In this document: positions 2,734 to 38,239 of the stretch, in pieces
Layout: every line of letters begins with the position of its first letter
Numbering within the stretch: position 1 is the stretch's first letter
Source: an uncultured Flavobacteriaceae bacterium
GTDB lineage: Bacteria; Bacteroidota; Bacteroidia; Flavobacteriales; Flavobacteriaceae
DNA: 64,000 nt
NCBI GenBank assembly: GCA_943842245.1
Contig: CALTAJ010000002.1
Location: forward strand, 955,596-1,019,595
Direction: 5' to 3'
Program-made: the position numbers and the translations under genes
The notes under the pieces: model-generated
Told to the model about the DNA's origin: nothing
Databases searched by the model: none
What the model saw: only the letters and a program-made list of their open reading frames with translations

Positions 2734-5442
2734 CTATAGCTTATAAATAATTCGAAAAGTTAAAAACCTAGGTTGAATAAAAGTAGAGGAATTTAATACC
2801 GAAACGCTATTAGCACTATTTTGAATTTGGGAACTTATATTTAATATATTGGATGCTTTTAATTCATATTCCCATTTAGCATCCTTGTCTTTTCTGTAAG
2901 CCAAAGAGAAATCCCAAAGCTGAAAAGACTGTGACTCCCCCCCAACCTGTTCTTGAATATTATAACTGTAATTGGTCTTGAAAGTGAATTTTTCAATAAT
3001 GTAAGCATCAAAATCTATAGATGGTGCCTTTGTAATAAATTTTGTTTCACGCGTTCCTTGTATATTATTTGAAATACTATAACGGTATTGTAAGCTTATG
3101 TTTGGTGCTACTCGAAAATTAGTTCTAATTTCAGGAGTATAGACCTGAGTAAAGCCTTCATTAATAGACCTCTGCTTTTGAATAAATTGGTTTATTTTAC
3201 TATAATTAAAATATGTTCTAAGACTAGCTCTGACCTTTCCAAAGGTTCTTTGGACACGCCCAAATAGATTAAAGTTTTCATCAGCAAAATTAGAGTTGAA
3301 ATAAGAACTCGTTCTAATTACATTTTCAAAATTTGTCAAACCACGAATCTGATCAATATTGCTTGAATATGCTGCTCTAGCAAATACATTTGTATAGTTA
3401 AAAAGATTAAAGCTTCTGTAAAGCATACTTATATTATGTGATAAAGCATTCTGTAAGTCAGGTTCTCCAAATTGAATATTGTTGTAACTATTAAATACTA
3501 AACCTCTTGCAAGTCGAGTTACATCAGTAAATTGATTACGCATATTATAATTAAAGGTTAGTGATTCTCCTTTCTTTAATTGGATGCGGGTCTCAAAATC
3601 TGGTAAAAGCTTTACAAAATTATTTTCGACGATTGTTCCAATCTGAGTATTTTTATTCCCGTAGGCGTGAACTGAAAAACCTGGCGTAATTGTAAACTTT
3701 CCAGCTTTAAATCTATAATGAACCCCTAAATACATGTCATTAAACATATAATCAATATCATTCACAGCTAAACCTTCGTTAAACAATGGTGTTGGCTGGA
3801 GTTTTGAATTATTTTCCAAGAATTGAAAAATATTAGAATTGAATTGCTGTCTACTTAAAATTGTTCCCAATGTAAAATTTATATTACTTTTAGACCCAAT
3901 AATGTTATAATAATCCAATTTTGCATCTAACTGATTAGTTTTAATTCTTCGGTTTTGTCCTAAATTATAAGATGCCTGGGATGTATCTAATCCCAAGGCA
4001 CTCGCTGTTGAATCAAAAGGATCTATATCCTGTGGGTTATTTTCCAATATAGCATTGTAAAAAGGATCTTCATCTTTTATTACGCTCTGAGCTTCAAATG
4101 CAAAAATATTATTTTCATTTAGGGTGTAATAATATTTAAGGTTTTGATTAACATTAAAGGGGGTGACTTCGTCAAATTGATTGGTTATACCTAATACTGA
4201 AGATAAATTATTTTTCTGTTGGGAATCATCAGAAGTCCGTGCCAAGATATCATAGTCAATTTGATTGCTGAAATTTGGCTTATATGAAGCACTCAATTTT
4301 ATTAATCCTTGACTTGAAAGCTCTGTATTTGACTGCTCCGTTGATTCATCAGGAATTTCTATATCTGCATTTGTATAACGGATACTGCTAATCTCGTTTG
4401 AAAGAATTCGACTATTGTTATATATCAAAAAACCACTAAAATCCAATGACTTCTTTGGAGAATAACTAAAATTTGCAGAAAAAAGTTTGTTTTCTATTTT
4501 TAGAGCATTCCTTTCATTTGTGAGAAAATTTAGACTGTTATCTCCCAGATTTATGCTTGTACCACTTCTAGAACTGGGAGACTGAAAGCCACCTCCAAAA
4601 CCTCTAATGTCTCGACGGGTTAGGGCCACTTCTCCTATATTATTAATATCACTTATGATATTAATACTATACTTTGGATTGTAATAAAATAATTTAGGCT
4701 GAAGTAAATAAAGTTTATCTTCAGGGGCGTCACCGGCGCCAGCTGTTACATTACCAAACCAAAAACTCTCTTTCCCTTCTTTTAACTTTATGTTAATTGC
4801 AAAATTATCTTGACTGCTTCTTACCCCGCTAAGCTGTCCTACTTCTGAATAATTTCGTAACACTTGAATTTTATCAACAGCACTTGATGGTATGTTTTTT
4901 GTCCCAACCTTTGTATCTCCATCAAAGAAATCTTTCCCATTGACCATTAGCTTATTGACCACCTTCCCTTCTACCTCAATCTGACCACTATCGTTGATTT
5001 CAACACCAGGTAATTTATCAATGATATCTTCTAATTTTCTTTCTGAACCACTTTTAAAAGAATCAGCATTATATATCAAAGTATCTCCTCTTACCTCAAT
5101 AGGTAATTTTACAATAACCTCATCTAATATGATATCTGCACGAAGAGAATAATTCTTCGTAATATCCTCTTTAGAAGTTTCAATGATATCATTTATTGTA
5201 ATTAGACCTAAAGAACTTACTTGAATCTTATAAGAAGTAGATTCTTTCACATCTAGTTTATAGTATCCTTTTTCATCAGTGAGTGCATAAGTTTCTAATG
5301 CATTTGATATTTTATTTATAGCTACAATACTTGCAGCTTCTAGGGGGATTTCTAAGCTATCAGAAACTATACCCTTTATTTTGATCTGACCGAAAGAAAT
5401 AGTGATGGTGAGAAATAGAATAAAAGATATTTTAGAACGCAT
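2734..5442 (-). CDS. TonB-type outer-membrane beta-barrel receptor with carboxypeptidase-regulatory-like domain
   Basis: About 902 residues from the preferred start. A signal peptide (M-R-S-K-I-S-F-I-L-F) leads to a carboxypeptidase-regulatory-like beta-sandwich (roughly residues 20-95, I-K-G-I-V-S-D-S-L then G-Y-Y-K-L-D-V). A plug-like region follows (roughly 105-240, with L-E-D-I-I-D-K-L-P-G-V-E and V-N-G-K-D-F-F-D-G-D), and the rest is a long beta-barrel. This is the layout of Bacteroidetes outer-membrane receptors that resemble TonB-dependent transporters. The open frame begins 8 codons earlier at 5466, but only the ATG at 5442 gives a normal signal peptide. The GLPGLI gene lies 75 bases upstream on the same strand, so the two are probably co-transcribed and may work together. 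The ligand is unknown. Confidence 0.85.
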   Translation of the reverse strand: MRSKISFILFLTITISFGQIKIKGIVSDSLEIPLEAASIVAINKISNALETYALTDEKGYYKLDVKESTSYKIQVSSLGLITINDIIETSKEDITKNYSLRADIILDEVIVKLPIEVRGDTLIYNADSFKSGSERKLEDIIDKLPGVEINDSGQIEVEGKVVNKLMVNGKDFFDGDTKVGTKNIPSSAVDKIQVLRNYSEVGQLSGVRSSQDNFAINIKLKEGKESFWFGNVTAGAGDAPEDKLYLLQPKLFYYNPKYSINIISDINNIGEVALTRRDIRGFGGGFQSPSSRSGTSINLGDNSLNFLTNERNALKIENKLFSANFSYSPKKSLDFSGFLIYNNSRILSNEISSIRYTNADIEIPDESTEQSNTELSSQGLIKLSASYKPNFSNQIDYDILARTSDDSQQKNNLSSVLGITNQFDEVTPFNVNQNLKYYYTLNENNIFAFEAQSVIKDEDPFYNAILENNPQDIDPFDSTASALGLDTSQASYNLGQNRRIKTNQLDAKLDYYNIIGSKSNINFTLGTILSRQQFNSNIFQFLENNSKLQPTPLFNEGLAVNDIDYMFNDMYLGVHYRFKAGKFTITPGFSVHAYGNKNTQIGTIVENNFVKLLPDFETRIQLKKGESLTFNYNMRNQFTDVTRLARGLVFNSYNNIQFGEPDLQNALSHNISMLYRSFNLFNYTNVFARAAYSSNIDQIRGLTNFENVIRTSSYFNSNFADENFNLFGRVQRTFGKVRASLRTYFNYSKINQFIQKQRSINEGFTQVYTPEIRTNFRVAPNISLQYRYSISNNIQGTRETKFITKAPSIDFDAYIIEKFTFKTNYSYNIQEQVGGESQSFQLWDFSLAYRKDKDAKWEYELKASNILNISSQIQNSANSVSVLNSSTFIQPRFLTFRIIYKL

Positions 5443-21851: not shown

Positions 21852-22784
21852 TTAGGTTCCACTTTCATCTTCTGATGTTTTATCAGAAAAAGCTTCACTT
21901 TCACTCTGATTACTCCCGCCACTAAATTTTACTCTTAAAAATATTTCATGATTATTAATACCTAAACTAGAGAGATTTTTATCGATATTTAATTCATAGG
22001 CATATCCAATATCAAAAAACTTTTTTAAAGAAATAAATAATAATGCTCCTGTTCTATTATTTGATCTATAGAAAGAACCGATCTGAATGTTATTTTTAAA
22101 GTCAAGGTTTATGGAAATTTCATGAGACATGGGTAAATATTCTACTTTCCTACTAATAAAACTTGGTTTTAGAATAAAATCGTCTGTTAACTTAATGTTT
22201 GTACCCCCTGAAAAATATGTATGTACTCTGTCAGAGGAAGTATAAATATCGTTGTTATTATTATTTCCAAATAATCTAGGTATTGAAAATGAAATCCAAT
22301 AATTTTTTGATTTAATCAATGTTCCAATACCAAAATTTGGTCTAGTGGAGCTAACTGCTTTTTGAGCGGGATCTGAAACATTATTTGTCGATACCAAACT
22401 TGAAATATCAGCTTTGAAAAAACTTGCTCCTCCTTTAAGTCCAAAGAAAAGTTTCGTTTGTTCAGTTAAATTTAATTTATACGAAAAATCTACATATGCA
22501 ATTGATGTATCTTCAACATAAAATTTGTTTGATATGAAAGAAACGCCTAAACCCACATTCTTTTTTCTCGGAGATGAAAAAATTAGGACCTGAGTTTTAG
22601 GAGCATTTTCAATTGATATCCATTGATTTCTTGAAGTTAAAGAAAGAGTAGTTTCATTTTCTGATCCTGCAAAGGCAGGATTCACAATATTCATATTATA
22701 TCTATATAATGAAAAAAAGGATTCTTGCTGAGAAAATAAAAATAATGGAACCGTTAAAAAAAGAAGATATATGTATTTTAACAT
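21852..22784 (-). CDS. PorP/SprF-family type IX secretion membrane protein
   Basis: About 310 residues. After a signal peptide (L-K-Y-I-Y-L-L-F-L-T-V, cleaved near residue 19), the family hallmark Y-N-M-N-I-V-N-P-A-F-A-G-S is present, followed by N-Q-W-I-S-I-E-N-A-P-K-T-Q. The rest is a beta-barrel ending in a Gly- and Ser-rich tail. In Bacteroidetes, PorP/SprF proteins are coupled to T9SS; SprF is needed to export or anchor the SprB adhesin. This gene starts 7 bases after the giant type-B cargo gene ends, the usual cargo-then-PorP/SprF arrangement. The open frame extends to 22835 inside the cargo gene, but the ATG at 22784 is the one that gives a signal peptide. Confidence 0.9.
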   Translation of the reverse strand: MLKYIYLLFLTVPLFLFSQQESFFSLYRYNMNIVNPAFAGSENETTLSLTSRNQWISIENAPKTQVLIFSSPRKKNVGLGVSFISNKFYVEDTSIAYVDFSYKLNLTEQTKLFFGLKGGASFFKADISSLVSTNNVSDPAQKAVSSTRPNFGIGTLIKSKNYWISFSIPRLFGNNNNNDIYTSSDRVHTYFSGGTNIKLTDDFILKPSFISRKVEYLPMSHEISINLDFKNNIQIGSFYRSNNRTGALLFISLKKFFDIGYAYELNIDKNLSSLGINNHEIFLRVKFSGGSNQSESEAFSDKTSEDESGT

Positions 22785-22791
22785 GAATAAA

Positions 22792-25700
22792 TTATCTTGT
22801 AATGTAAACCCAACCCTTAAAGTCAATGGTTCCATTGTTATCTACATCAATCATGTATAAATAACTTGCTGAAGGGAGGTCTATTCCGTTAAATGTACCA
22901 TCCCAAAGATTTTCATAATTCTCTTTTGAAAACACCAAAACACCAGAAGTATCATAGACCGATACTCTATTACTAGAATATCTTTCGATTTCTCCTATGA
23001 CCCATAGATCATTTATTCCATCTCCATTGGGTGAGAAAAATTCAGGAAAAGTAAGTGGAATAAAATTCTCATTCTCTTCAAAACTCTGATCAGGATTAAA
23101 AAGTCTAGGAGCGTTGTCAAAATTATTAGGTATACCGTCTCCATCAACATCAAAATCTATTGAATCCATAACAAAATCATTATCTAAATCTGGGGGGGTA
23201 TCATTTGAATCTAACGGGTTTGATCCTACAAGGATTTCATCAAAATCTGAATAACCATCATTGTCATTATCCTCATCTTCATTATTTCCAATTAGGTCAT
23301 TATCAGAGTCTAGCCATTCAAACGGATTAAAAGGAAAAGCGTCAACGTCATCATTATATCCATCATTATCATCATCTAAATCTCCATTATCTCCTATTCC
23401 ATCCCTATCAAAATCGGATGTTTCATTTGGATCGTTAGGAAATAAATCCTGAATTAAATAATCTTCTCTCCAATTAACTCCAAGGTCTGGAATACCATCA
23501 TTATCATCATCATAATCTTGATTATCTGGAATACCATCATTATCATTATCAACCCATTCTCTAGAGTTCAATGGATATTGATCATCTTCATTTAAATAAC
23601 CATCATTATCTGCATCACCATCGTAAAAATCTAGAATACCGTCTTGATCAGTGTCTAATGGAAAACTTCTAAAATCAAATTGGTCTGTACCAATTAACAT
23701 TTCATCTGCATCCACAAAGCCATCACCATCAGTATCAATAAACCTAGCATCATAAGGAGGAATTGCCTGTCCATCCTGGACTTCTTCTATAGAAAATAAA
23801 CCGTCATCATCAACTAGTAACTCAAATTGTTTTTCAAAAACTAATCCTTCCCAATCTGTTGCTCTTATTATAATCTGAAGTGGGGTATTTGCCTTACAAG
23901 AAGAACAATTATAATATAATTTTTGATTTTTAATTTGAAATTTATCTGCATTCGGTGAGCTAGAAGGAATTGTTACTTCAATAATATCATCTAAATCGGG
24001 ATCAGTAACAGTTATATTTGATATAAACTGCTCTCCTTTTCTTGAAATTTTGCTGCTACTTACATCATTAAGTATGATATCGGATGGCTTTTCATTAACA
24101 TCAACAACCTCAAAATTATAGGTTGTTTGCGCGGTTTTTGAAGATGCATCATCCCCAGGCTGAATTGCAGATTTAGATGGGAAAGCTGTCTTTTTCTTTT
24201 TAACCTTCCATTTTCCGACATTTTTTCTGGTTTCAAAATTTCCTTTTGATGTTGCAGAATAGTTAGAAGACTTTTGAACAGTTTGTTTTTTTCCACTATT
24301 AGGCGAATATTCAAAGTTTAGAACAGTTTCAATGTAATTTACTAATTGAGCTGTTACTGTTATAAAGTCACCAGTAGTAGAGACGATACCACTTGATGCA
24401 CTCATGTCTGTATCCCAGACAATATCATCTCCCTTAACTTTACCTAAGGCTCCTAACTGTCCAAGTTTTCTATATCCCCAGCCATATGGATTATTATTTT
24501 CATCCAATGCAACCTGAAAACGAAACCCTCCTAAGTTTTTATTCCATTTAATATTTCCTTTAACTTCAGTAGGAACATTTTTATCAGAATAATCTCCTAC
24601 TGCAAGAGTTCCTAGATCATTATCTCCCCAAGCATACATTGTTTTTGATGCAGAAGCCGTTATTGCAAAACTAACTTCAGATGATGCATCTATCTTTGAA
24701 AAAACTGTGGTGCTAACTGTATTTATTAATGTTGGTTGTCCTAATCTACTCCATTCTCCATATGAATTTCCAAGACCCAGTTGTCCTTGGGTATTTGCTC
24801 CCCAACTATATATTTTGCCATTGTCGTCTAACCCGATTGCATGATATAATCCTAATGAAATTTTATCCCAATTGTTTCCAGCGTCAAAAATTGGTGTTAA
24901 ATCACTTACAAAACCAGGATTACAATCTACCGATATATATGTTTGACTTGTAGAGTTTGAAATGGAACTACTTGATGTAGCAGAGTTTTGTAATTCGGTA
25001 GAAATATTAAAATTAGTGTTTTCTATATTCTCAATAAACATTTTTGTAGAAGAAGCTGTGAAAGAATAGCTGAATGAATTAATTCTATTACTATTTTCTA
25101 TGGCTGTTTTTAAATTTGTTATTGCATCTTCGGCTGATGAAGAATAAGCATCAATTCTAATTCCATTTAAAACTATAGTGTAAGTTGTTGATCCCGATAT
25201 ATTCTTAACTGTATCACTAAAACTCATGGCTCCTGTAAAAGAAGCAACAGTAGTGCTTGAAACCCCAATTATAGAATATCCAAATTTATGAGATGTATGG
25301 TTTTTAGCTTCAAATAAAAGTGTTGAACTTCCAGAATTAGTTGGAGTGGTTGTTAATGTAAAGTTATTTTTAAGAGTATTGTTTGCATTAAATTCAGTTG
25401 TTATTTTACTTAGAAGACTTGTAGTATTTGTTACATTTCCAACTGATAGTACAGTTCCCCCAAGGTTAAGAGTAAATGTTGCTATTCCTGCTGACATTGA
25501 AACTTGATATTCAGTTTTTTGTTTTTGAAGTGGATGAGTAACTTCTATAATATCTATCTGATTTCTTGGATCTGGACAAGGATCATCTGTTAATAGGTTA
25601 TGCCAATTAGCTCCAGCTCCCCAAATAGATCCGTCATTTTTTTCAATTAAAATCGCTTGTTCTGTACCTAAAAAATCATGGAAGTGTGACCAATCTGAAT

Positions 25701-28700
25701 ATTTTCCAATTTTAGTAGGTACAGATAAAGGAAACCAAGAACCTGTGTAGAAGTTTGATCCTGCACCCCAAAGCTCACCATTATTTTTTATGTATACAAA
25801 CCCTCCTCTAACAGGTGAAAAATCTTTAATATCACTGAGATTTACTCCTTCAACTTTAGTAGGCGCACTGACATAATCACTTTTTGTGCCAAGACCAAGA
25901 TCAAAGTTTTTGTTTTTACCCCAAGCCCATAATGTTCCATCTGATTTAAATGCATATACATGTTCTGAAATTGCATAAAGCTGTGTCCACCCTTCTTCAT
26001 TAATTTTTTGAGCCTCATAGTTAGATGCCTGAAGAGACCTGTTACCCCTACCAAGTTGTGCATATAAATTATCTCCATAAGCCCATATTTGCTGAGAATT
26101 TGTTAAAATTTGGGTTTCGGTCTCAGTTACTTTTACCTCATTTACATTACTTGTTATTGCGTCCCAGTCCAACTGTTTTGGTGTATTATCATTTGTAGCC
26201 CCTGTTCCTAATTGACCTTGGTCATTTGATCCGATCATTCTTAATTTACCATCAACATTAATAATCCCAGCTTGCTGTTCACCTGCGGTAAGGTCTGTTA
26301 TTTTACCCATGATTATATTTGGACTAGAGAATTTTTCAAATGTTGTTGGTTTTCCCTTTCCTAATTGACTACTTAGATTTCTTCCCCAACTATATAATTT
26401 CCCAGTATCTGAGTGACCAACTCCAAAGTTAAATCCAAGTGCAACATCAGACCAACTTTCATCAATCCTAACCTGTATTGGTGTAGGGATTACATATCCA
26501 TAATTTTCTCCATCCAACCATGTTTCAAGGGACTTAGAATCATGAGTTGGAAGAGACCCATAGTTTAATCCCCAGACATAAAGTTTTTTATCCGTTGTAA
26601 CTGCTGCATATGAGGCACCTGATTGACCATAATTCCATGTGCTTATCTTACTCCAATTTGAACCAGATATTTGATTTAAAGTAAATAATGAAGAATTAAT
26701 TTGATTTTGTGAATTTACTCTTGAATCAAGAGGTAAATAATCTGGTCCATCCAAAACACCGTCACCATCAAAGTCAGGATTCATCTGATCAGTTCCATGC
26801 CATAACTCAAATTGATTATTAATCCCATCGCCGTCCATGTCGTCATCACAATTATCAGCTATAAAGTCAAGGTCTAAATCATTTTGCCCACAAGAACTAT
26901 ACAAAGCAAATTCATAACCATCCGGAGTCCCATCATTATCAGAGTCCTGATCAGCCCAATTTACATCTCCGTCATCATCCCAATCATTATCATCATTTTT
27001 ATTATCCAGTCCGGAGTTTTTATATAATGTAGTAAGATATTGCTCCAAATTATCAGGCATGGCGTCTCCATCAGCATTAGCCGGTAAACTAGGGTTTATA
27101 TCAACACTACTGATTGGCCATTCGTAGTGATCATATACCTTGGAATTAAGATTATATAAATTCTTCTCAGTTCCATAGGTTTCAACAGCATCTGGATAAT
27201 AATCATTATCATCATTATAGTCTTGGTTATCACCCTCTCCGTCAGCATCTGAATCCAACCATTCATTTTTATTAAGTGGGAATACATCTATACCGTCATT
27301 GAATCCGTCTCCATCGGTATCTGCTGATGTATCTTTAGTTCCTATTTTTAATTCATATTCATCTGAGGCCTTGTCATTGTCCTGGTCATTTGATGGATAA
27401 CTGGTGGGGCTTAGAGTATTTGTTTTACTGAAAATTTCATCTAAATCACTAAACCCATCTCCATCATCATCAAAGTCCCAGTTATTTCCAATACCATCAT
27501 TATCCGTGTCAATATGCTCTTGATCCCACCTTGGAAATTCATCTATACCGTCATTATAACCGTCATAATCTGAGTCTGGCCAGTATACAGAAGTTAAAGA
27601 AACATTCTCTTCATGAGTATTTGATAAACCATCTCCATCTATATCAGTATCAACTATAGTAGAAGTATCTTGTCCTGACCAAGGGTCAATCCTACCATCT
27701 CCGTTTAAATCTGTCCATGTCGCATCAGGAATACCGTCCCCATCTGTATCTTCAAAAGAATTTGGATCCAAAGGCATTTGATCCCAATCATCACCAAAGT
27801 CATCCCCATCAGAGTCCCAATAATATGGGTTAGTGCCAAGCTCTGCTTCCTTTAAGTCAGAAAGACCATCATTGTCATCATCGAGATCTTCATTATCAGC
27901 GATATTATCCCAATCCCTATCTTGCCACTCATCTTTATTATTTGGAAATCTATCTTCATTTCTCCAATCACATTCGCTTGTTATAATGCCAATGCTTCCC
28001 CACCAATCCCAGGTTTGTAAATAAATATTAGCTTCAGTATCACTTCCTGTAATTAATAGTGTCGTCCCAGATATGGAGGCTGTTATGGTTTCCGTAGCTG
28101 TAACTTGGTTATTATTAACATAATATTTATATGGTATTTGGCTATAATTATTATTAATCTGGTTTCTGAAGTTTATTAGCATTTCTGAAACTGTATATGT
28201 AGCTGTTTCAGTTGTTAGAGAAACTGTAATTGTATTATCCCAGTTACTTTGTCCCTCAATCATTATTTTGTATTGCTCACCTAACATTGTAGTTGAAGTA
28301 GATGTTGAGGTAATTTTAACGGCTTTTTGCCAGTTTAAATTTGAATCAAACTTTGCAAAGCCTAAACCATAACACCCGTCTGACCAGCCGTCTCCATCAG
28401 AATCAGGATTTTTAGAGTCTAATCCAAGAGAGTTCTCTCTAGAGTCTTCCATCCCATCATTGTCATCATCCCAATCTTGATTGTCGCCCCAATAATCACC
28501 GTCACTATCTAACGTTTCTGTTTTATCCCATGGTATTCCATCTTGTCCATCATTAATTCCATCATTGTCTGAATCTATAAGATACGGATTTGACTTAGCC
28601 CAATATTCATATTCACCATTTGAATTAGGAGCCTCACCAGATGTTCCATTTCCGTCGTAATCGCCAGTTTCAGAAGGACGCTTATTGATCATTTCGAAAG

Positions 28701-31700
28701 CATCGGTAAGCCCATCATTATCATCATCTGTATCGGCATTATCCCCTGTCCCATCATCGTCATTATCTAAGGCCTCATTTGCATTAGTAGGAAATAAATC
28801 CGTAGCGGGAATCATGTATCTTTTATACTGCTCGTTAGTCTCAGCTTGAAATCCTTTAATAAACACGTAATAATCAATTATATGAAGATTCCCACCACTC
28901 ATACCGCTTGTTGATCTAGTTGACATTACACCTGCATCCTCATCTACTAAGTCTGGTGTTTTCCAGCCATCAGTAAAGCCATCATCGTCAGAATCCCAAT
29001 CACTATTACTAGAACCTCTTGAAGTTTCAAAAGAATCAGAAAAACCGTCTCCATCGTTATCCCCAGAAGGGCTTTCATTCCAATCTTTCGAATCTGTTCC
29101 ATTATAAATTTCATCTATATCATAAAACCCGTCTCCATCGTCATCTAAGTCCTTGTTGTCTCCAAATAAATCTTCAATCTCGTCATTTACTTCACCATTT
29201 CCGTGGAGTGAATTTGGATGACCAAAATCTGAATTGGTTGTTTCTGTTGCATCAAGAGGAAAAGCGTCAATTTCAACCCATATATCTAAAAGAGAACCGG
29301 AACTAGTGTTTGAAACTATTTTATAAGCTGAGTCTAAATTACTATATCCAAGACTCCTATAAAGTGTGAAACTTTCTGTAACAGAATAAGCATTTCCGCC
29401 TGAATCATTTCCTGAAGCAACAACATCAAAAGTTTTAGAAACAGCACCTGAAAAATATGGTGCTGAACCATCTGGGAATATATAATTATATGTTGAGTTT
29501 GCTCCAGTGCTAGTTAACGATGTTGAGCTTGTTGTCTTCTCAAAAGTGTACTCAATATCGTCTACTATGTGGTAATTTGTGTAATAACCGGTTCTAGAAG
29601 CAAAATTAAATTCCCAATTTGCTAATTCTGACGGGTTAAACCCTGAAAGTGCCTGGTTTGAAAAGTTTAATCCAAAACCTGAAAAATCAAGTCCATTTTG
29701 ATCATAATTTATGCTAATAGTTGTTGAAGTTGTAAATCCTCCACCATTATTAGAAGCAATTAAGTTTCCTTTCCAAAAAACTTTTTCAGTGTTATTATAT
29801 TCATCAAAGGCAATTGTCAGACCTGTTGAAGGTATTACCTCTTCATAATTAGCATATTGTGAATAGTTTAAGGCTGGCCCAAAATTAAATGCCATTCCGT
29901 CTGCAGTAAGAGCGGTATTGCCACTTGCATTGCTATGTGCCTCACCACCATATTGCCTGTGTTTGAATGATATTGTAAATGTTCCAGTTGCAGAAATACT
30001 CGGATCTACTGAAAACACTCCCCACCTTCCAGTTGACAAATTTGTTAATGATAATGATCCATCACCAACCATTTTTGAATCTGTATTTATTATTGCATCT
30101 CCCTTAAATTGACTTGACAATGGCCTGTTTTCAAAATCTATCTTTTTTGTTATTAAACTTGTTTCATTACCTGATAAGCTAAGATTTGGTGTTGAAGAGA
30201 TGCTCCCAGAGGTTTTAACATAAATTGTTAAAAGATCATTTACTCCGTCATTATCAGAATCTGGGTCAGAATTATCACCAATTCCGTCACCATCTACATC
30301 AGACCATTCATTTGCATTCGTAGGAAAAATGTCCTCTTTCCATGCGTTTTCATTAATCCACCTATCTTCAATTTCATCAAAGACCCAATTACCTCCTTCA
30401 CCTTCACATTGTCGCCAGTTTGGTTCCCACCAAGTATATCCATATGTTGTATCAGTATATTTGACCATTCTATTTGGATCACACGCACAATCTTTATAAC
30501 CATCACCGTCAGAATCCTGACTATTTTTATTGAGTCCATTAGCGTCCTCATATGCATCAGACATTCCATCACCATCGGTATCAGTTATTCCAGAATCAAA
30601 AGTTTGTGTTACAGTCCAGCTTTTTGTTGGAAATGCGTCGTTATAGTCATCAACCCCGTCTCCATCAGTATCTGAAATTGTAGCTGAGGTATTGAGGAAA
30701 ACTTCTTCTTCCCAATCTTCTAATCTATCTTTATCCTGATCCCAAGCGATAGTTGGATCCAAGGGCCAGCTGTCCCAACCATCTGCACTACCGTCTCCAT
30801 CAGTATCATAATTAAAGGGATCCGTACCCATTGACACTTCAAGTCCGTCAGGTAACATATCAAAATCGTTGTCTTCAGGAGTTGAATTCCAATCTTTAGG
30901 GTCAGTCCCTACAGCACTATCTGTCTCATAAATATCAGAGAACCCATCATTATCATCATCAAGGTCAACTTCATCAGCTTCACCATCTCTGTCAGTATCA
31001 AGTGTAAAATTTGCATTATTAGGAAAATCATCTCTTGGAGCTTTATTTTGACATGCAGGGCTGATACCTTCCCATTCTTCCCATGAAACCCAACCATTTC
31101 CATCACAATCATATTTTAAATCATAAAATCTCCAAAAATAAAGCCACTGGTCACATCTGTCCCATCCATTTGAACAATCTAAATTATTTGCTGCCTGTCT
31201 AAATGTTTCAAATTTATCAGCAGCAATTGCATCCATATATCCATCTGAATCAGTATCGCTTGAAGTTGCACTTGTGCCGTTGACTGCCTCAAGAGCATCC
31301 GGTAATCCATCATTATCTGTATCATACTTGTAATGATAGGTTCTTGGGTATTTATCATCTTTATCATCTACTCCATCTCCATCAGTGTCTAATACGCACG
31401 GGTCAGCCCATACCTCCCATTCGTCTTCATCTGCCACACCATCTCCATCACAATCCCATTTTTTCGATGAATCTTGAGGATCTGCATCTTCACCATCTGG
31501 CACTCCATCTCCGTCGGTATCCCAATTGTCATCATTAGGATCTAATTCATATGCTAACCCGTCCTGGTCCTTATCAACTGAATAATCTGAGTTTAGTGGA
31601 AGTTGGTCCTGAGCATCTGTTACTCCATCTCCGTCAGAATCAGCATTTGTTTTGGAAGTTCCAATTTGGTCCTCGATTTTATTAGGTAATCCATCACCAT

Positions 31701-33213
31701 CTGAATCATATTGAAAGGAAGGATCCCATTCAAAAGCATCATCAACATCTGGAACTCCATCATTATCTTTATCTAAAGTTGAAAGGTTTGCTGAGGTTGG
31801 AATATCCATATCAATAGAATACATAGTTCCGTCGTCAGCAATTGCAATTATTGCATCTCCAACCGAAACATCAACCCAAGTTTTTCCAGCGCCTACTTGC
31901 ATAGGTTGATTTAGCAAAAACCCATCCACTATTCCCCATATATATAGGGTTCCTGATGTAGTTATTGCTGCAACAGCAGTATCATAAACATCGTTTAGAT
32001 TATTGTTTGTATTTGGATATTTTGGTGTAGCAAAGTTTTCTGAAATAGCTACTTTTTCCCAATTTATAGTTTGGTCTTGTAATCTGGTTTGTATTTTTTG
32101 TGGCTGATAGTATTTATCATCATTTTGCCAACCCATATTTTTAAAAAGAGTAGGTCCACTGATTGGCTTAGTCCCAATTTGCATTCCATAATGAGTATTA
32201 GATAAAACTGCACTCCAAAGGGCTATTCCCCCGGAAGCAGTTCCCCAGAAATATAAATCTCTAGTGTCTTTTTCGATTGCTAAAACGGCATTTTTTGATA
32301 ATGCAAAATCATGAAAATATAAATCTGTCCCAGTTGCCATTGCGAAATAAAACGGACAAAGAGCGTTGTACATTGTTTCATCCATGTATGGATCATTTGG
32401 ATCTGAGCCAATATGTGTTTCAAAAGCATCAGAGAAATAATCTCCATCTGAGTCAGTAGGTTTTGAATCTTCGTTAGAAGCATTACTTGACCCATAAGTA
32501 GTCTCGTCAATATTCCAGTAACCGTCATTATCTGAATCAATATCAGAATAATTTGGTGGAATGGTTATTTTAACAGGCTCATAAATAACCTGAGATTGAT
32601 TGCAATATTCTGTTATCAATCTTTTTGCATTTCTTCCCCAAGCCCAGAGCGTTCCATCAGTTTTTAAACCAACACTGGTTTTGTAAAATGTTTGGATCTT
32701 TTGCCAAGAGCCGTCAGTGTCATCATATTTTAACTTTCCGATAGTATCTCCAACCTTAAGTCCATCTTCAGGGATTTCAAAAACTTGTAAGGGCAGAACA
32801 TTAAATCCTGTAAGTGTTGTAAAACTTGATGTGCCAGTTTCGGAAGGGCTGTAAAAGGTCCCATTTTCATTTGTTGACAATTGCCATCTGTAGTAATAAG
32901 AAGTATTTGCAGTTAAATTATCTTGAGAGAAAGTGAATTTTTGAAGATAATCTGTTTTGGAATCATAATTTTGTGTTGAAGAAACAGTTGCTACCAATTG
33001 AGTGGTTAGAGAGCTAGTATTTGTGCCAAATGAAATATATAAATCACCACTTAAATTAACACCATGATTAACTTCTAATCCTAATTCTACCCTTTTAGTT
33101 CTAATTTCTGTTTCGGTAAAATCTTGGGATATAATAATGTCCTGTGCATTTATTGAAAAGCACAATAAAAAAACATTTATTAATAAAATAATTCTTTTTA
33201 CCAACATTACCAT
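22792..33213 (-). CDS. Giant T9SS type-B cargo: RCC1 repeats, TSP3 calcium loops, lectin-like and cadherin-like domains
   Basis: 3473 residues. Approximate order: signal peptide 1-23; Fn3-like segment 24-140; scattered RCC1-type motifs 178-200 and 310-470; a first large block of DxDxDGxxD thrombospondin type 3 loops, 475-993; an L-type-lectin/ConA-like beta-sandwich, 1018-1225; TSP3 loops to about 1620; a Ser/Thr-rich beta segment 1622-1748; TSP3 loops 1752-2165; seven RCC1-like units 2178-2552; a second beta-rich segment 2555-2767; three RCC1-like units 2770-2925; a cadherin-like domain 3038-3138 (V-D-V-N-E-K-P-S-D-I); TSP3 loops 3141-3375; and a gliding-motility-type C-terminal sorting domain 3388-3473 (F-F-S-P-N-G-D-G-I-N-D-L-W). 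About fifty calcium loops are present. It is probably exported by T9SS and held on the surface with the PorP/SprF partner, perhaps as an adhesin. The ligand is unknown. The start could also be the Met at residue 3. Confidence 0.93.
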   Translation of the reverse strand: MVMLVKRIILLINVFLLCFSINAQDIIISQDFTETEIRTKRVELGLEVNHGVNLSGDLYISFGTNTSSLTTQLVATVSSTQNYDSKTDYLQKFTFSQDNLTANTSYYYRWQLSTNENGTFYSPSETGTSSFTTLTGFNVLPLQVFEIPEDGLKVGDTIGKLKYDDTDGSWQKIQTFYKTSVGLKTDGTLWAWGRNAKRLITEYCNQSQVIYEPVKITIPPNYSDIDSDNDGYWNIDETTYGSSNASNEDSKPTDSDGDYFSDAFETHIGSDPNDPYMDETMYNALCPFYFAMATGTDLYFHDFALSKNAVLAIEKDTRDLYFWGTASGGIALWSAVLSNTHYGMQIGTKPISGPTLFKNMGWQNDDKYYQPQKIQTRLQDQTINWEKVAISENFATPKYPNTNNNLNDVYDTAVAAITTSGTLYIWGIVDGFLLNQPMQVGAGKTWVDVSVGDAIIAIADDGTMYSIDMDIPTSANLSTLDKDNDGVPDVDDAFEWDPSFQYDSDGDGLPNKIEDQIGTSKTNADSDGDGVTDAQDQLPLNSDYSVDKDQDGLAYELDPNDDNWDTDGDGVPDGEDADPQDSSKKWDCDGDGVADEDEWEVWADPCVLDTDGDGVDDKDDKYPRTYHYKYDTDNDGLPDALEAVNGTSATSSDTDSDGYMDAIAADKFETFRQAANNLDCSNGWDRCDQWLYFWRFYDLKYDCDGNGWVSWEEWEGISPACQNKAPRDDFPNNANFTLDTDRDGEADEVDLDDDNDGFSDIYETDSAVGTDPKDWNSTPEDNDFDMLPDGLEVSMGTDPFNYDTDGDGSADGWDSWPLDPTIAWDQDKDRLEDWEEEVFLNTSATISDTDGDGVDDYNDAFPTKSWTVTQTFDSGITDTDGDGMSDAYEDANGLNKNSQDSDGDGYKDCACDPNRMVKYTDTTYGYTWWEPNWRQCEGEGGNWVFDEIEDRWINENAWKEDIFPTNANEWSDVDGDGIGDNSDPDSDNDGVNDLLTIYVKTSGSISSTPNLSLSGNETSLITKKIDFENRPLSSQFKGDAIINTDSKMVGDGSLSLTNLSTGRWGVFSVDPSISATGTFTISFKHRQYGGEAHSNASGNTALTADGMAFNFGPALNYSQYANYEEVIPSTGLTIAFDEYNNTEKVFWKGNLIASNNGGGFTTSTTISINYDQNGLDFSGFGLNFSNQALSGFNPSELANWEFNFASRTGYYTNYHIVDDIEYTFEKTTSSTSLTSTGANSTYNYIFPDGSAPYFSGAVSKTFDVVASGNDSGGNAYSVTESFTLYRSLGYSNLDSAYKIVSNTSSGSLLDIWVEIDAFPLDATETTNSDFGHPNSLHGNGEVNDEIEDLFGDNKDLDDDGDGFYDIDEIYNGTDSKDWNESPSGDNDGDGFSDSFETSRGSSNSDWDSDDDGFTDGWKTPDLVDEDAGVMSTRSTSGMSGGNLHIIDYYVFIKGFQAETNEQYKRYMIPATDLFPTNANEALDNDDDGTGDNADTDDDNDGLTDAFEMINKRPSETGDYDGNGTSGEAPNSNGEYEYWAKSNPYLIDSDNDGINDGQDGIPWDKTETLDSDGDYWGDNQDWDDDNDGMEDSRENSLGLDSKNPDSDGDGWSDGCYGLGFAKFDSNLNWQKAVKITSTSTSTTMLGEQYKIMIEGQSNWDNTITVSLTTETATYTVSEMLINFRNQINNNYSQIPYKYYVNNNQVTATETITASISGTTLLITGSDTEANIYLQTWDWWGSIGIITSECDWRNEDRFPNNKDEWQDRDWDNIADNEDLDDDNDGLSDLKEAELGTNPYYWDSDGDDFGDDWDQMPLDPNSFEDTDGDGIPDATWTDLNGDGRIDPWSGQDTSTIVDTDIDGDGLSNTHEENVSLTSVYWPDSDYDGYNDGIDEFPRWDQEHIDTDNDGIGNNWDFDDDGDGFSDLDEIFSKTNTLSPTSYPSNDQDNDKASDEYELKIGTKDTSADTDGDGFNDGIDVFPLNKNEWLDSDADGEGDNQDYNDDNDYYPDAVETYGTEKNLYNLNSKVYDHYEWPISSVDINPSLPANADGDAMPDNLEQYLTTLYKNSGLDNKNDDNDWDDDGDVNWADQDSDNDGTPDGYEFALYSSCGQNDLDLDFIADNCDDDMDGDGINNQFELWHGTDQMNPDFDGDGVLDGPDYLPLDSRVNSQNQINSSLFTLNQISGSNWSKISTWNYGQSGASYAAVTTDKKLYVWGLNYGSLPTHDSKSLETWLDGENYGYVIPTPIQVRIDESWSDVALGFNFGVGHSDTGKLYSWGRNLSSQLGKGKPTTFEKFSSPNIIMGKITDLTAGEQQAGIINVDGKLRMIGSNDQGQLGTGATNDNTPKQLDWDAITSNVNEVKVTETETQILTNSQQIWAYGDNLYAQLGRGNRSLQASNYEAQKINEEGWTQLYAISEHVYAFKSDGTLWAWGKNKNFDLGLGTKSDYVSAPTKVEGVNLSDIKDFSPVRGGFVYIKNNGELWGAGSNFYTGSWFPLSVPTKIGKYSDWSHFHDFLGTEQAILIEKNDGSIWGAGANWHNLLTDDPCPDPRNQIDIIEVTHPLQKQKTEYQVSMSAGIATFTLNLGGTVLSVGNVTNTTSLLSKITTEFNANNTLKNNFTLTTTPTNSGSSTLLFEAKNHTSHKFGYSIIGVSSTTVASFTGAMSFSDTVKNISGSTTYTIVLNGIRIDAYSSSAEDAITNLKTAIENSNRINSFSYSFTASSTKMFIENIENTNFNISTELQNSATSSSSISNSTSQTYISVDCNPGFVSDLTPIFDAGNNWDKISLGLYHAIGLDDNGKIYSWGANTQGQLGLGNSYGEWSRLGQPTLINTVSTTVFSKIDASSEVSFAITASASKTMYAWGDNDLGTLAVGDYSDKNVPTEVKGNIKWNKNLGGFRFQVALDENNNPYGWGYRKLGQLGALGKVKGDDIVWDTDMSASSGIVSTTGDFITVTAQLVNYIETVLNFEYSPNSGKKQTVQKSSNYSATSKGNFETRKNVGKWKVKKKKTAFPSKSAIQPGDDASSKTAQTTYNFEVVDVNEKPSDIILNDVSSSKISRKGEQFISNITVTDPDLDDIIEVTIPSSSPNADKFQIKNQKLYYNCSSCKANTPLQIIIRATDWEGLVFEKQFELLVDDDGLFSIEEVQDGQAIPPYDARFIDTDGDGFVDADEMLIGTDQFDFRSFPLDTDQDGILDFYDGDADNDGYLNEDDQYPLNSREWVDNDNDGIPDNQDYDDDNDGIPDLGVNWREDYLIQDLFPNDPNETSDFDRDGIGDNGDLDDDNDGYNDDVDAFPFNPFEWLDSDNDLIGNNEDEDNDNDGYSDFDEILVGSNPLDSNDTPPDLDNDFVMDSIDFDVDGDGIPNNFDNAPRLFNPDQSFEENENFIPLTFPEFFSPNGDGINDLWVIGEIERYSSNRVSVYDTSGVLVFSKENYENLWDGTFNGIDLPSASYLYMIDVDNNGTIDFKGWVYITR
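23090..23790 (-). repeat. Thrombospondin type 3 repeat block, C-terminal
   Basis: Eleven or so tandem calcium-loop units (DTDGDG, DNDNDG, DDDNDG and similar, typically 12-25 residues apart) just before the sorting domain of the giant cargo. On the plus strand they appear as repeated CCATCATTATCATC-like runs. Confidence 0.85.
24440..24910 (-). repeat. RCC1-like repeats, second set (three units)
   Basis: Three units with the RCC1 pattern: hydrophobic-A-hydrophobic, then D-D-N-G, then Y-S-W-G-x-N-x-x-G-Q-L-G-L-G. Three are too few for a seven-bladed propeller, so they may complete an earlier set across an inserted beta-rich segment. Confidence 0.75.
25560..26680 (-). repeat. RCC1-like repeats, main set (about seven units)
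   Basis: Units of roughly 50 residues carrying W-A-W-G-K-N, S-W-G-R-N, I-G-S-N-D-Q-G-Q-L-G-T-G and related cores. Seven units would suffice for one beta-propeller. Confidence 0.8.
26720..27960 (-). repeat. Thrombospondin type 3 repeat block, central
   Basis: Tandem DxDxDGxxD loops separated by short linkers with proline or tryptophan (F-P-R-W-D-Q, P-L-D-P-N), encoding residues about 1752-2165 of the giant cargo. Confidence 0.85.
28360..29190 (-). repeat. Thrombospondin type 3 repeat block after the lectin-like domain
   Basis: Tandem calcium loops (DDDGDG, DNDGDG, DSDDDG, DDDNDG and others), encoding residues about 1340-1618 of the giant cargo, with one non-repeat insert around M-I-P-A-T-D-L-F. 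Confidence 0.8.
30235..31790 (-). repeat. Thrombospondin type 3 repeat block, N-terminal and longest
   Basis: About eighteen DxDxDG loops encoding residues about 475-993 of the giant cargo. Several linkers carry cysteines and many tryptophans (for example W-D-C-D-G-D-G and Y-D-C-D-G-N-G), unlike the plainer loops of the other blocks. Confidence 0.85.
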
Positions 33214-33918: not shown

Positions 33919-35267
33919 TTAATTTAATTTATAATGCCATTTATGCTCTTCCAACTCATCTAATAATTCTGGTATTATTTTAACTTTAATTTTTTTACTA
34001 TTCAGTGTAAGCTTAACTTTTTTATCTGAATCATATACATTAAAAAATATCGGTTTATCACCCTTAAATGGTTTCAAGTGATCTTCTAGTGCTTTTATTT
34101 TTTCACTTTGAAGTTTATGAATATCCAGCTGAATTGTTAGTTTTTTAGAATTAGTTTCTACTGTATTTTGAAGCATTTCAAAACTTAAATATTGTATTCT
34201 AGGAGCCCCTACTTTTCCAGTCTCTTTATTAGTCCAACCCGGACGAACCATAGTGCGGATCCTTATGAATTGATTGACAACCAAAAAATGTCTGTACTTT
34301 AAATAATCCTCTCCAAAAATCCTAAACTCATGTTGGTCAGAGAAATCCTCCACCATAAAACGGGCCCATGCTTTTCCATTTCTACTTTCTAAATGCTCAA
34401 CTTCATTTACGATACCACCAATATTTAACTCGCGATTTATCAAATGATCTAAATCCCCCAACTGTGCTAAAGAAATATTTGTAAAGTGCTCCATCTCATG
34501 AGTAAAGTCATCTAAAGGATGGGCCGATATATATATTCCAACCACCTCTTTTTCCTTTTTTAGTCGTATTAAATTTTTCCAAGGTTCACTAGGAGGTATT
34601 GTCAAGTCTTGATAAGTTTCATCGGTTTCCTCTCCAAAAAGACTAGTTTGAGCAGAGTTTAAATTCTCTTGATATTTAGATCCAAAACGTATCACTTTTT
34701 CTAAAAATGTAATCCCGTCTCCATCAGGATTTAAATACTGTGCTCGATGAGTTTCACCAAAAGAATCCATCCCACCTGCCAACAATAAATTCTCAAAAGC
34801 TTTTTTATTAGCAGCTCTTAAATCAATACGTTTTACTAAATCAAAAATTGAATTAAATTTTAAGTCTTTTCGATGTTCTATTATTGTCTCTACAGCACCC
34901 CTTCCAACCCCTTTTACAGCTCCCATCCCAAAGCGAATTTCTTGTTTATCGTTAACTGCAAATTTGTAAAAAGATTCATTAACATCAGGCCCTAAGACCG
35001 TAAGACCCATTCTTCTACATTCTTCCATAAAAAATGAAACCTGCTTAATGTCATTCATGTTATTTGAAAGGACAGCAGCCATATATTCGGCAGGATAATG
35101 TGCCTTTAAATAAGCTGTTTGATAGCCAATCCAAGCATAACAAGTAGAATGTGATTTATTAAATGCATAAGCAGCAAATGCTTCCCAGTCTTTCCAAATT
35201 TTTTCAAGTACCTCCTCAGGGTGTCCGTTAGATTTTCCTCCATCAATAAATTGAGGTTTTAATTTTT
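33919..35267 (-). CDS. dnaE: DNA polymerase III alpha subunit, C-terminal part (second frame)
   Basis: The continuation of dnaE after a one-base frame change. The frame resumes with P-Q-F-I-D-G-G-K-S-N-G-H-P at the disruption and reads through A-Y-A-F-N-K-S-H-S-T-C-Y-A-W, which belongs to the polymerase fingers. It then covers the helix-hairpin-helix region (F-G-M-G-A-V-K-G-V-G), the OB-fold (I-G-G-I-V-N-E-V-E-H) and the C-terminal domain. No start codon lies near the junction; the first ATG in this frame (35082) would omit conserved fingers sequence. It is therefore not an independent gene. Joined with the upstream part and with one A removed, the total is 1439 residues, the expected size for the Flavobacteriia enzyme. 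Confidence 0.9.
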
Positions 35268-38239
35268 GCTAGTAGTGCAAAAATCTTTTTACCCATAGCC
35301 TTTCTTAAAACATCAGCATCACCCTTGGAAAAGCCAGCTAATTTTTGAGATAATAGCATCACTTGTTCCTGATAAACCGTAATGCCATATGTTTCTTTTA
35401 AATACTCGCCCATTACTGGCAAATCATATGTTATATCTTCATTCCCATTTTTTCTATCTACAAAACTAGGAATGTATTCAAGTGGACCAGGTCTATATAA
35501 TGCATTCATGGCTATTAAATCATCAAAAACCGTAGGTTTTAAATCTTTAAGGTATTTCTGCATTCCTGTTGATTCATATTGAAATATCCCTACAGTTTCA
35601 CCGCGCTGAAATAGCTCATAGGTTTTTGAATCATCGAGTGGAAAATTATCAGGATCTAAATCAATATCATACTTATATTTAACTTGTTTGACAGTATCCT
35701 TGATCAAGGTTAAAGTTTTAAGTCCTAAAAAGTCCATCTTTAATAAGCCCGCATCCTCTACAACCGAATTATCAAATTGTGTTACATAAAGATCAGAGTC
35801 TTTAGCAGTAGCAACTGGAACAAATTTCGTGATATCATCTGGGGTAATAATTACTCCACAAGCATGAATTCCTGTATTACGTAAAGAACCCTCTAGGATT
35901 TTAGCTTGTTGTATAGTCTGACCAGAAATTGAATCCTCATCAGCTAAATTCTTGATCTCATTAACCCTTAAAATTTCTTCTGCTCGTAATTTCCCTTTGA
36001 GCTCTTGATCAGAATTACTAAAAATAGTATCAAGTTTGATATTGGGTAATAATTTAGCTATTCGATCAGCTTCACCTAGAGGTAAATCTAACACTCTTGC
36101 AGTGTCACGAATGGAAGACTTGGCAGCCATGGTTCCGTATGTCATGATCTGAGCAACTTGATTTGAGCCATATTTTTCAATGACGTAATCCATTACGCGA
36201 CCTCTTCCTTCGTCATCAAAATCAATATCAATATCGGGCATACTTACTCGATCTGGATTTAAGAAACGCTCAAAAAGTAAATTGTACTTAATTGGATCAA
36301 TATTGGTTATTTTAAGGCAATAAGCCACAACTGAACCTGCAGCTGAACCCCTTCCAGGACCAACGGAAACATCCATATTTCGAGCAGCTGCGATAAAATC
36401 TTGGACAATTAAAAAATATCCTGGGTAACCGGTATTTGCTATAACCTCCAATTCAAAATCAATACGCTCTTTTATATCATCGGTTAATTTTAAATAGCGA
36501 TCTTTAGCACCCTCATATGCAAGAAAACGTAAATAATCATTCTCTCCTTTTTTTTCATCTGAATCATCATTTATTAAATGTTCATTTGGAATTTCAAATT
36601 TGGGCAATAAAACTTCTCGGGCTAAACTAAAAGGCTCAATTTTATCAATTAACTTTTGAATATTTAGTATAGCTTCCTCAAGGTCTTGAAATAATTCTTT
36701 CATCTCGTCACCTGTCTTAAAATAATATTCTTGATTGGGGAAGCCATATCGGAATCCTCTGCCTCTTCCAATTGGTGTTGCCTGCTTTTCACCTTCCTTT
36801 ACACATAGTAAAATATCATGAGCATTAGCCTCTTCCTTTTTAGTGTAATAAGTATTATTAGTCGCAATAATAGGAATATTGTATTTACTTGAAAAATCGA
36901 TAAGCACATCGTTCGCGCGATCTTCTCCTTCTTCACCATGGCGCATCAACTCGATATAAAAGTCATCTCCAAATTGATTATGCCACCATTTTAATGCTTC
37001 TTCAGCTTGACGATCCCCCATATTTAGAATTTTCGAGGAAACTTCACCATATGTATTTCCACTAAGCACAATCAAATCATCTTTATAGTGTTCAACTAAT
37101 TTTCTATCGATACGGGGTACATAATAGAATCCATCTACATAAGCTGCAGAAGTAAGTTTTGCCAAATTGTGGTATCCAGCTTTATTTTTAGCTAAAAAGA
37201 CTATTTGATAGCCGTCATCTCTCCGGGTTTTGTCTTTATGGTCACCACAAACATAGAATTCACAACCCACTATCGGTTTGATTTTTTTATCCTCTTCTAC
37301 ATTAATATTATGTTTATCAATAGCCTTAATAAAATGAAATGCTCCCATCAAGTTTCCGTGATCAGTTATAGCTATTGCAGGCATATTGTCTGCCGCAGCT
37401 GCCGCAACCAATTGATTAATACGTGAAGTTGCTTGTAAAACCGAGAACTGAGAATGGTTATGTAAATGAACAAAAGGAGCATTCGCTAGGCCACTACTTA
37501 TTCCTGAATGTAAAGTCGATTTTTTTATATCAACTTTATCTTTTTTTAATACTGCTGATGCTTCTTTTAAATTTTGATGAGACAAGCCAATTAACTTAAA
37601 AGGAGTGCTTATCTCTCTTATTTCTAACGTTTGAGCTTGTTGATTTTCAAATACCTCAGGGTGTAAATTGTCTTTTCGCAGTAATTCCAAAAAAATACGG
37701 GAAGTTGCTTCCACATCAGCTGTTGCATTGTGGGCTTCTTCAAAACTTTGCTTAAAAAGGAAATTATAAAGTTCACCGAGAGTGGGTAGTTTGAATTTTC
37801 CCCCACGTCCTCCAGGCAGTTTACATAAATTTGCCGTTTCTTCTGTGCAAGTGTCAATTACAAGCTTTCCTTCTAACGCATCATCCAAATCTGACCGTAA
37901 AAATTCAGCCCCAATGATATTGCGATCAAAAGACACATTATGTCCTACCACAAAATTTACCTTATTTAAGGCTAATTTAAATTTATTCAACACTTCCAAT
38001 AATGGAGATCCTTGATCTTGAGCTAAAGCTGTTGAAATACCGTGTACTTGTTCAGAATCAAAAGGAATACTAAAGCCATCAGGACTAATCAAATAATCTT
38101 CATGGCTAATAACTGAACCTTTAGGATCATGAATTTGCCATGCAATTTGAATACAACGAGGCCAGTTTTCACTATCACTTAATGGCGCTTTCCAACGTTT
38201 GGGTAATCCTGTTGTTTCGGTATCAAATATTAAATACAT
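35243..38239 (-). CDS. dnaE: DNA polymerase III alpha subunit with fused exonuclease, N-terminal part
   Basis: 998 residues of the replicative polymerase. An N-terminal DnaQ-like 3'-5' exonuclease domain (about 1-200: D-T-E-T-T-G at 6-11, H-N-A-T-A-D-V-E near 170) is the Flavobacteriia arrangement. A PHP domain starts near 256 (H-L-H-N-H-S-Q-F-S-V). The polymerase core follows, with G-P-G-R-G-S-A-A-G-S and the catalytic P-D-I-D-I-D-F-D-D near 671. After A-M-G-K-K the frame runs a further 14 residues and hits a stop, because an A5 tract (35263-35267) has one base too many. The correct protein continues in the next frame to 33919. Sequencing or assembly error, real mutation, or recoding are all open; the gene is essential, so an error is the simplest explanation. 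Confidence 0.93.
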   Translation of the reverse strand: MYLIFDTETTGLPKRWKAPLSDSENWPRCIQIAWQIHDPKGSVISHEDYLISPDGFSIPFDSEQVHGISTALAQDQGSPLLEVLNKFKLALNKVNFVVGHNVSFDRNIIGAEFLRSDLDDALEGKLVIDTCTEETANLCKLPGGRGGKFKLPTLGELYNFLFKQSFEEAHNATADVEATSRIFLELLRKDNLHPEVFENQQAQTLEIREISTPFKLIGLSHQNLKEASAVLKKDKVDIKKSTLHSGISSGLANAPFVHLHNHSQFSVLQATSRINQLVAAAAADNMPAIAITDHGNLMGAFHFIKAIDKHNINVEEDKKIKPIVGCEFYVCGDHKDKTRRDDGYQIVFLAKNKAGYHNLAKLTSAAYVDGFYYVPRIDRKLVEHYKDDLIVLSGNTYGEVSSKILNMGDRQAEEALKWWHNQFGDDFYIELMRHGEEGEDRANDVLIDFSSKYNIPIIATNNTYYTKKEEANAHDILLCVKEGEKQATPIGRGRGFRYGFPNQEYYFKTGDEMKELFQDLEEAILNIQKLIDKIEPFSLAREVLLPKFEIPNEHLINDDSDEKKGENDYLRFLAYEGAKDRYLKLTDDIKERIDFELEVIANTGYPGYFLIVQDFIAAARNMDVSVGPGRGSAAGSVVAYCLKITNIDPIKYNLLFERFLNPDRVSMPDIDIDFDDEGRGRVMDYVIEKYGSNQVAQIMTYGTMAAKSSIRDTARVLDLPLGEADRIAKLLPNIKLDTIFSNSDQELKGKLRAEEILRVNEIKNLADEDSISGQTIQQAKILEGSLRNTGIHACGVIITPDDITKFVPVATAKDSDLYVTQFDNSVVEDAGLLKMDFLGLKTLTLIKDTVKQVKYKYDIDLDPDNFPLDDSKTYELFQRGETVGIFQYESTGMQKYLKDLKPTVFDDLIAMNALYRPGPLEYIPSFVDRKNGNEDITYDLPVMGEYLKETYGITVYQEQVMLLSQKLAGFSKGDADVLRKAMGKKIFALLAKIKTSIY

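Follow-up and report, generated by a model that had tools for sequence, protein, structure and literature searches.

What a single gene of more than 10 kb contributes to an uncultured marine flavobacterium, how its product would be held at the cell, and which of its parts would select a target are the questions raised by the locus described here, which lies on a 64,000-nucleotide stretch of Flavobacteriaceae DNA (the window). Marine flavobacteria live on algae and particles, and the determinants of their targets are hardly known; in these bacteria, TSP3 and similar repeats have been proposed to help cells adhere to algal mucilage and to particles (PMC2668756). The reading favoured below, to which we give a probability of about 0.7, is that the giant protein is a surface adhesin that is shuttled by a PorP-family partner, stiffened by calcium, and furnished with exchangeable binding modules.

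Layout of the giant gene and its sorting signal

The giant gene occupies window positions 22792-33213 on the minus strand, as do all of its features listed below by window position, and reads as 3,473 codons without interruption. These coordinates and this length agree with the initial annotation, from which the strand was absent. The protein begins with a signal-peptide-like, hydrophobic stretch that by eye ends in SINAQ (MVMLVKRIILLINVFLLCFSINA, residues 1-23, 33145-33213), followed by a putative FN3-like beta-sandwich (residues 24-165, 32719-33144) that is suggested by a weak PF16656 match (0.016) and by the pattern of strands in a low-confidence model. Four RCC1 blades then lead into a TSP3 rod of approximately 1,700 residues, which bears a lectin-like module and a module termed M, and the rod in turn leads into ten further blades. 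The second RCC1 block is followed by a linker and conserved beta domain (residues 2930-3150, 23764-24426), then by one more TSP3 rod, and finally by the sorting domain. The beta domain has no profile match, and its earlier description as cadherin-like (approximately residues 3030-3140) is not supported, there being no Pfam or NCBIfam cadherin match in either the window protein or six orthologues.

The rod is divided by its loop positions into four segments, at residues 481-990 (30244-31773), 1346-1630 (28324-29178), 1751-2180 (26674-27963) and 3160-3378 (23080-23736). A count of 49 DxDxDGxxD loops, as compared with a mean of 0.7 and a maximum of 4 when the sequence was shuffled 200 times at constant composition, bears out the initial estimate of about fifty, and the protein matches the TSP3 model PF18884 above its cut-off (27 versus 25 bits). 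The calcium-loop rod is thus well supported by sequence, with binding of Ca2+ predicted. Matches to the NCBIfam models MtsC (56 versus 350 bits) and CglD (50 versus 400) reflect common TSP3 loops, and at scores so far under the cut-off they indicate no kinship. Two other type-B cargos of the window genome (G000) are TSP3-rich as well: L059:5089-9843 has 59 calcium loops and L060:4883-8917 has 21, and a separate PorP gene lies downstream of each.

At the very C-terminus, residues 3388-3473 (22795-23052) match two models of the T9SS type-B sorting domain (CTD) well above cut-off (TIGR04131, 68 versus 35 bits; PF13585, 81 versus 27). The adjoining gene (21852-22784) belongs to the PorP/SprF family (TIGR03519, 191 versus 90.6 bits); its listed reading frame starts at 22835, but the likely start is position 22784, about 8 nucleotides past the stop codon of the giant gene. 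A PorP/SprF gene lies directly 3' of the giant gene in every relative with a readable 3' end, an arrangement that type-B cargos often but not always show. In addition, the divergence of the PorP proteins tracks that of the C-terminal end of the cargo (r = 0.95 over 28 non-independent pairs), as is expected for a cognate pair. In Flavobacterium johnsoniae and Porphyromonas gingivalis, cognate PorP/SprF proteins pick up type-B cargos and hold them, and these cargos are either known adhesins or predicted to be so (PMC12618676; PMC9143113). The assignment of the giant as a type-B cargo with a partner of its own, which the initial annotation had drawn from the final domain and its neighbour, is therefore upheld by curated models, by conserved synteny, and by these published pairs.

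Six type-B CTD matches and six PorP-family genes, one weak in each set, are present in the window genome, where they form five adjacent pairs. The unpaired members are an HYR-repeat cargo (L062:5810-9403, on G000:C2) and a PorP gene (G000:C4:17669-18520) with no CTD match adjacent to it. By analogy with the orphan cargos and Fjoh_1677 of F. johnsoniae, these two orphans may be partners.

Export and pairing of this kind could also suit a protein with a different fate. For instance, the giant could be an SprB-like gliding adhesin that is carried over the surface by the gliding machinery, and the type-B CTD, the cognate PorP/SprF gene, and the presence in the window genome of GldJ and of the T9SS translocon SprA (TIGR04189, 2,600 bits) are in keeping with this. 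However, GldJ is the one member of the gliding set that was examined, and some type-B substrates of F. johnsoniae are static, not all of them reaching the gliding machinery (PMC12618676), so that we consider such a role unlikely. To a similar degree improbable is a secreted scaffold or matrix protein that is released to the medium, a possibility raised by the fact that TSP3 rods alone are no surface signal and that the PorP pairing is the only anchor visible in the sequence. Here, in the cases that were tested, type-B proteins were bound at the surface to their PorP partners (PMC9143113), and profile searches of the giant against Pfam and NCBIfam found no enzyme family, both of which argue for a surface adhesin over a released product.

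RCC1 blades and a possible split propeller

The RCC1 repeats proposed in the initial annotation are matched above curated cut-offs by three Pfam models (PF25390, 2.2e-67; PF00415, 1.4e-31; PF13540, 1.3e-25), and they fall into two blocks. The N-terminal block of four blades (residues 166-480, 31774-32718) had been overlooked; it is matched by PF13540 (6.1e-08), and by a profile built from the C-terminal blades only at 24.7 and 10.1 bits, the higher score being that of blade 1, with blades 2-4 weaker. TSP3 loops sit between blades 1 and 2. The second block, of ten blades at residues 2184-2926, consists of blades 5-7 (residues 2184-2356, 26146-26664), 8-11 (2357-2550, 25564-26145) and 12-14 (2779-2926, 24436-24879), all placed by RCC1 profiles. 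Blade 11 is split by two beta-rich domains (residues 2551-2778, 24880-25563) that belong to no known family.

Both blocks were modelled with AlphaFold2 from six or seven sequences. In the model of residues 2170-2940 (mean pLDDT 55, pTM 0.45), residues 2355-2916, which comprise blades 8-14, align with the UVR8 propeller over its full extent (chain residues 15-367), the alignment passing over the inserted domains (298 residues, Z 21.5, rmsd 4.0). The low-confidence model of the N-terminal block (pLDDT 52, pTM 0.46) gives a partial match to RCC1 propellers, with a Z of 13.8 for UVR8. If blades 8-14 form one ring, blades 5-7 are left over, and together with the four N-terminal blades they suggest a second propeller built across the rod. 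Blades 1-4 and 5-7 would then make up a single seven-bladed ring, and the rod of approximately 1,700 residues would be a hairpin-like loop with both ends clamped at one propeller, exposing the lectin along its length or at its far end.

Arithmetic is consistent with such a split propeller, in that 14 blades are twice seven and 4 + 3 is seven, and the blocks of four and ten are conserved in the orthologues. Against it, a blade-to-blade profile comparison gives no clean pairing of blade i with blade i+7, and closure of blades 5-11, together with 12-14 and 1-4, is arithmetically possible too. Moreover, with mean pLDDT values of only 55 and 52, and pTM values of 0.45 and 0.46, which blades close is weakly determined by the models. 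We regard the split ring as a tentative reading, at rather less than even odds. Somewhat more doubtful is the fuller picture of a clamped loop, in which a calcium-stiffened rod would leave and re-enter one propeller, with a glycan-binding module as a cassette that is swappable among unrelated T9SS cargo genes. A truly split propeller would be an uncommon means of fastening both ends of a long rod. The RCC1 propellers could also serve intramolecular roles only.

The repeats are of the same family as those of UVR8, HERC1/2 and RCC1, with which the giant shares a seven-blade ring in the low-confidence model. The giant differs from these proteins in being exported and bacterial, and in having 14 repeats in two blocks with rod, lectin and other modules between them. 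A ligand-binding domain inserted in a beta-propeller is familiar from the integrin alpha-I domain. The resemblance extends to insertion into a propeller, the split in the giant being a model-based idea; there is no sequence relation, and the part inserted here would be a rod of approximately 1,700 residues.

A lectin-like module that recurs in a second cargo

Relatives of the RCC1 region were found in 12 congeneric marine genomes besides the window genome, although in one of them, G223, the gene mostly reads as N. The compared genomes are metagenome-assembled and single-cell assemblies, many of them incomplete. Five orthologues are full-length, with open frames of 3,758-3,930 codons (SI034_bin153, AG-325-O11, NorthSea HE361, AG-892-D16 and AG-461-O21). 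Among 199 genomes sampled from the family, the only relatives from beyond the genus are RCC1 proteins of lesser length and a single fragment, at a contig end, with 52% identity. Neither the RCC1 region nor the lectin has a relative on the viral contigs searched.

Along the rod and blades, the window protein is mostly 50-85% identical to the five full-length orthologues. In the segment at approximately residues 1001-1340, identity drops to about 20%, and the orthologues are longer there by about 290 amino acids. This is the site of the lectin module (residues 1021-1232, 29518-30153), which is inserted in a host beta-sandwich whose 5' part (residues 991-1020, 30154-30243) was positioned by visual comparison with the G215 orthologue and whose 3' part (residues 1233-1345, 29179-29517) matches that orthologue by BLAST (34% over 94 amino acids, E 2e-9), the BLAST support extending to the 3' part only. 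The G215 protein thus has the host sandwich without the lectin, and the lectin is missing from all seven giant orthologues that are readable at the module site. What the five full-length orthologues have instead are M modules, in four copies in L032-L035 as opposed to the one copy of the window protein (residues 1634-1750, 27964-28314). Module M has no Pfam match; by eye it had been suspected to resemble flagellin IN domains, for which Pfam gave no support.

The lectin is found elsewhere in the genus, in a type-B cargo with HYR repeats and TSP3 loops, in G230 and G231 (55% identity) and in G225 (43%). Among the HYR orthologues that are readable at the corresponding loop, three of 16 hold the lectin and 13 do not, the window genome's own among the latter, and the readable giant genes of G225 and G230 are without it. 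The lectins of both hosts form a single clade against relatives from other families, with support of 100/100. Absence from the giant orthologues and presence in the HYR cargo of congeners indicate one lectin module in two different cargo hosts, and from sequence the binding part of the adhesin therefore seems exchangeable between cargo genes. The lectin segment does not differ in base composition from the sequence around it, and direct repeats flanking it are not above chance. The HYR gene of G217 (L101:359-4366) has a different and longer filler in the loop that holds the lectin in three congeners, and the loop thus looks like a general point of module insertion.

The two hosts have in common their class of secretion signal and their TSP3 loops, as judged from the congeneric HYR cargos (L057 and L058) and that of the window genome (L062), and they share the lectin module by way of the three congeners. 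The HYR cargo differs in having no RCC1 repeats, another N-terminus, and no adjacent PorP gene, and in carrying the lectin in a loop after the start of an HYR-type domain.

A difference confined to one module might instead come from faulty alignment or assembly, or from comparison of paralogous giant genes. At least one frameshift is apparent in the window assembly, in dnaE (33919-38239, minus strand), and several are seen in G230. In contrast, the giant frame is open through the lectin module and both of its junctions, both flanks align at 50-80% in five relatives, and the same PorP gene follows, with several relatives sharing the wider neighbourhood as well. In addition, each lectin-bearing genome has a single lectin copy, and 16 genomes allow the HYR site to be read. 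We consider an artefact very improbable, and take the module to differ between true orthologues.

With respect to dnaE itself, the gene reads as frames of 998 and 387 amino acids, with the change of frame near A/T-rich runs, and almost all congeners have it as one long uninterrupted frame; the split probably stems from an error of sequencing in this assembly. In G230, the giant gene (L045, on G230:C3) is broken into several frames, as are other long genes of that genome, and for this reason its breakage is likely an assembly error rather than gene decay.

Whether the module is a lectin is a question for distant relatives. The segment alone has no match in Pfam, NCBIfam, PHROGs, or the PDB, the last searched with both the single sequence and a four-member profile. 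A class-wide profile search uncovered relatives in other families, and one distant relative (L114) scores 27.3 bits with PF03388, above the cut-off of 24. Several relatives match PF18483 below its cut-off, for instance the close relative L058 (27.3 versus 78.3 bits). An eight-member profile has 12 matches in the PDB, 11 of which are L-type lectins (E 0.0065-0.19), with VIP36, Emp47 and ERGIC-53 at the head of the list (best E 0.0065). In the L-type lectin family, ADG and FDxxxN are motifs for sugar and metal. Here, the four close members show no variation in ADG (within ADGM.FNFGP) or in FDxYxN, and ADG is kept in all eight. The PF03388 match, the eight-member profile and the motifs together make an L-type lectin fold likely, and we infer sugar binding from it. 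The lectin-like sandwich of the initial annotation is thus supported by way of distant relatives, with no direct Pfam or PDB match to the module itself. Profile similarity and the ADG and FD-x-N motifs are common to the module and to VIP36, ERGIC-53, Emp47 and the legume lectins, from which it differs in being bacterial and in its insertion into a beta-sandwich that is part of a giant protein.

Proposed mode of action and relation to known systems

In the mechanism that we propose, the giant would be exported through SprA and then taken over by its own PorP-like shuttle, which, by analogy with F. johnsoniae and P. gingivalis, would keep it on the surface. Calcium would compact and stiffen the TSP3 loops and thereby turn the chain into a rod, in which RCC1 propellers may act as rigid nodes, and the lectin would bind a glycan of algae, particles or neighbouring cells. 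On a conserved scaffold, modules along the rod could be gained, lost or exchanged: the window species has one M module and the lectin, its relatives have three more M modules, and congeners have the lectin in another type-B cargo. Such an exchange would alter what the cell sticks to and leave the parts for export and anchoring unchanged.

The closest precedents for export and anchoring are SprB/SprF of F. johnsoniae and PG1035/PorP of P. gingivalis, which are likewise type-B cargos with a PorP/SprF protein that collects and anchors them; the accessible parts of these reports do not describe RCC1 blades, TSP3 rods or an L-type lectin in them (PMC12618676, PMC9143113). THC0290_2385 of F. psychrophilum has RCC1 repeats, is exported by the T9SS, and is found in the surfome, as proposed for the giant, but has a type-A CTD (TIGR04183), and no giant TSP3 rod is reported for it (PMC5682007). 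RCC1 cargo of the T9SS is therefore already known, as is the joining of TSP3 loops to a type-B CTD, which is common in the window genome. On both counts the initial description of domain types rarely seen together was too broad; it stands for RCC1 with TSP3 in a single giant chain, and the apparent exchange of the lectin is likewise unusual.

Giant adhesins whose modules vary are well known as a class. To our knowledge, the combination of RCC1, TSP3 and lectin has not been described, nor has the occurrence of a single lectin module in two cargo hosts that are unrelated, and no report of either was found in the open-access literature. What sets the locus apart is a conserved export-and-anchor scaffold that keeps its PorP partner, together with a binding module that varies among close relatives and recurs in another cargo gene. 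Binding specificity could thus be tracked as a module-borne trait.

Overall divergence of these genes is also of note. The giant is approximately 56% and its PorP approximately 50% identical to the counterparts in G225 and G222, although Mfd is 84-85% identical, and the HYR cargo of the window genome is 87% identical to that of G227 and 46% to that of G225. Judged by these identities, the predicted surface cargo genes in the genus do not follow the species background.
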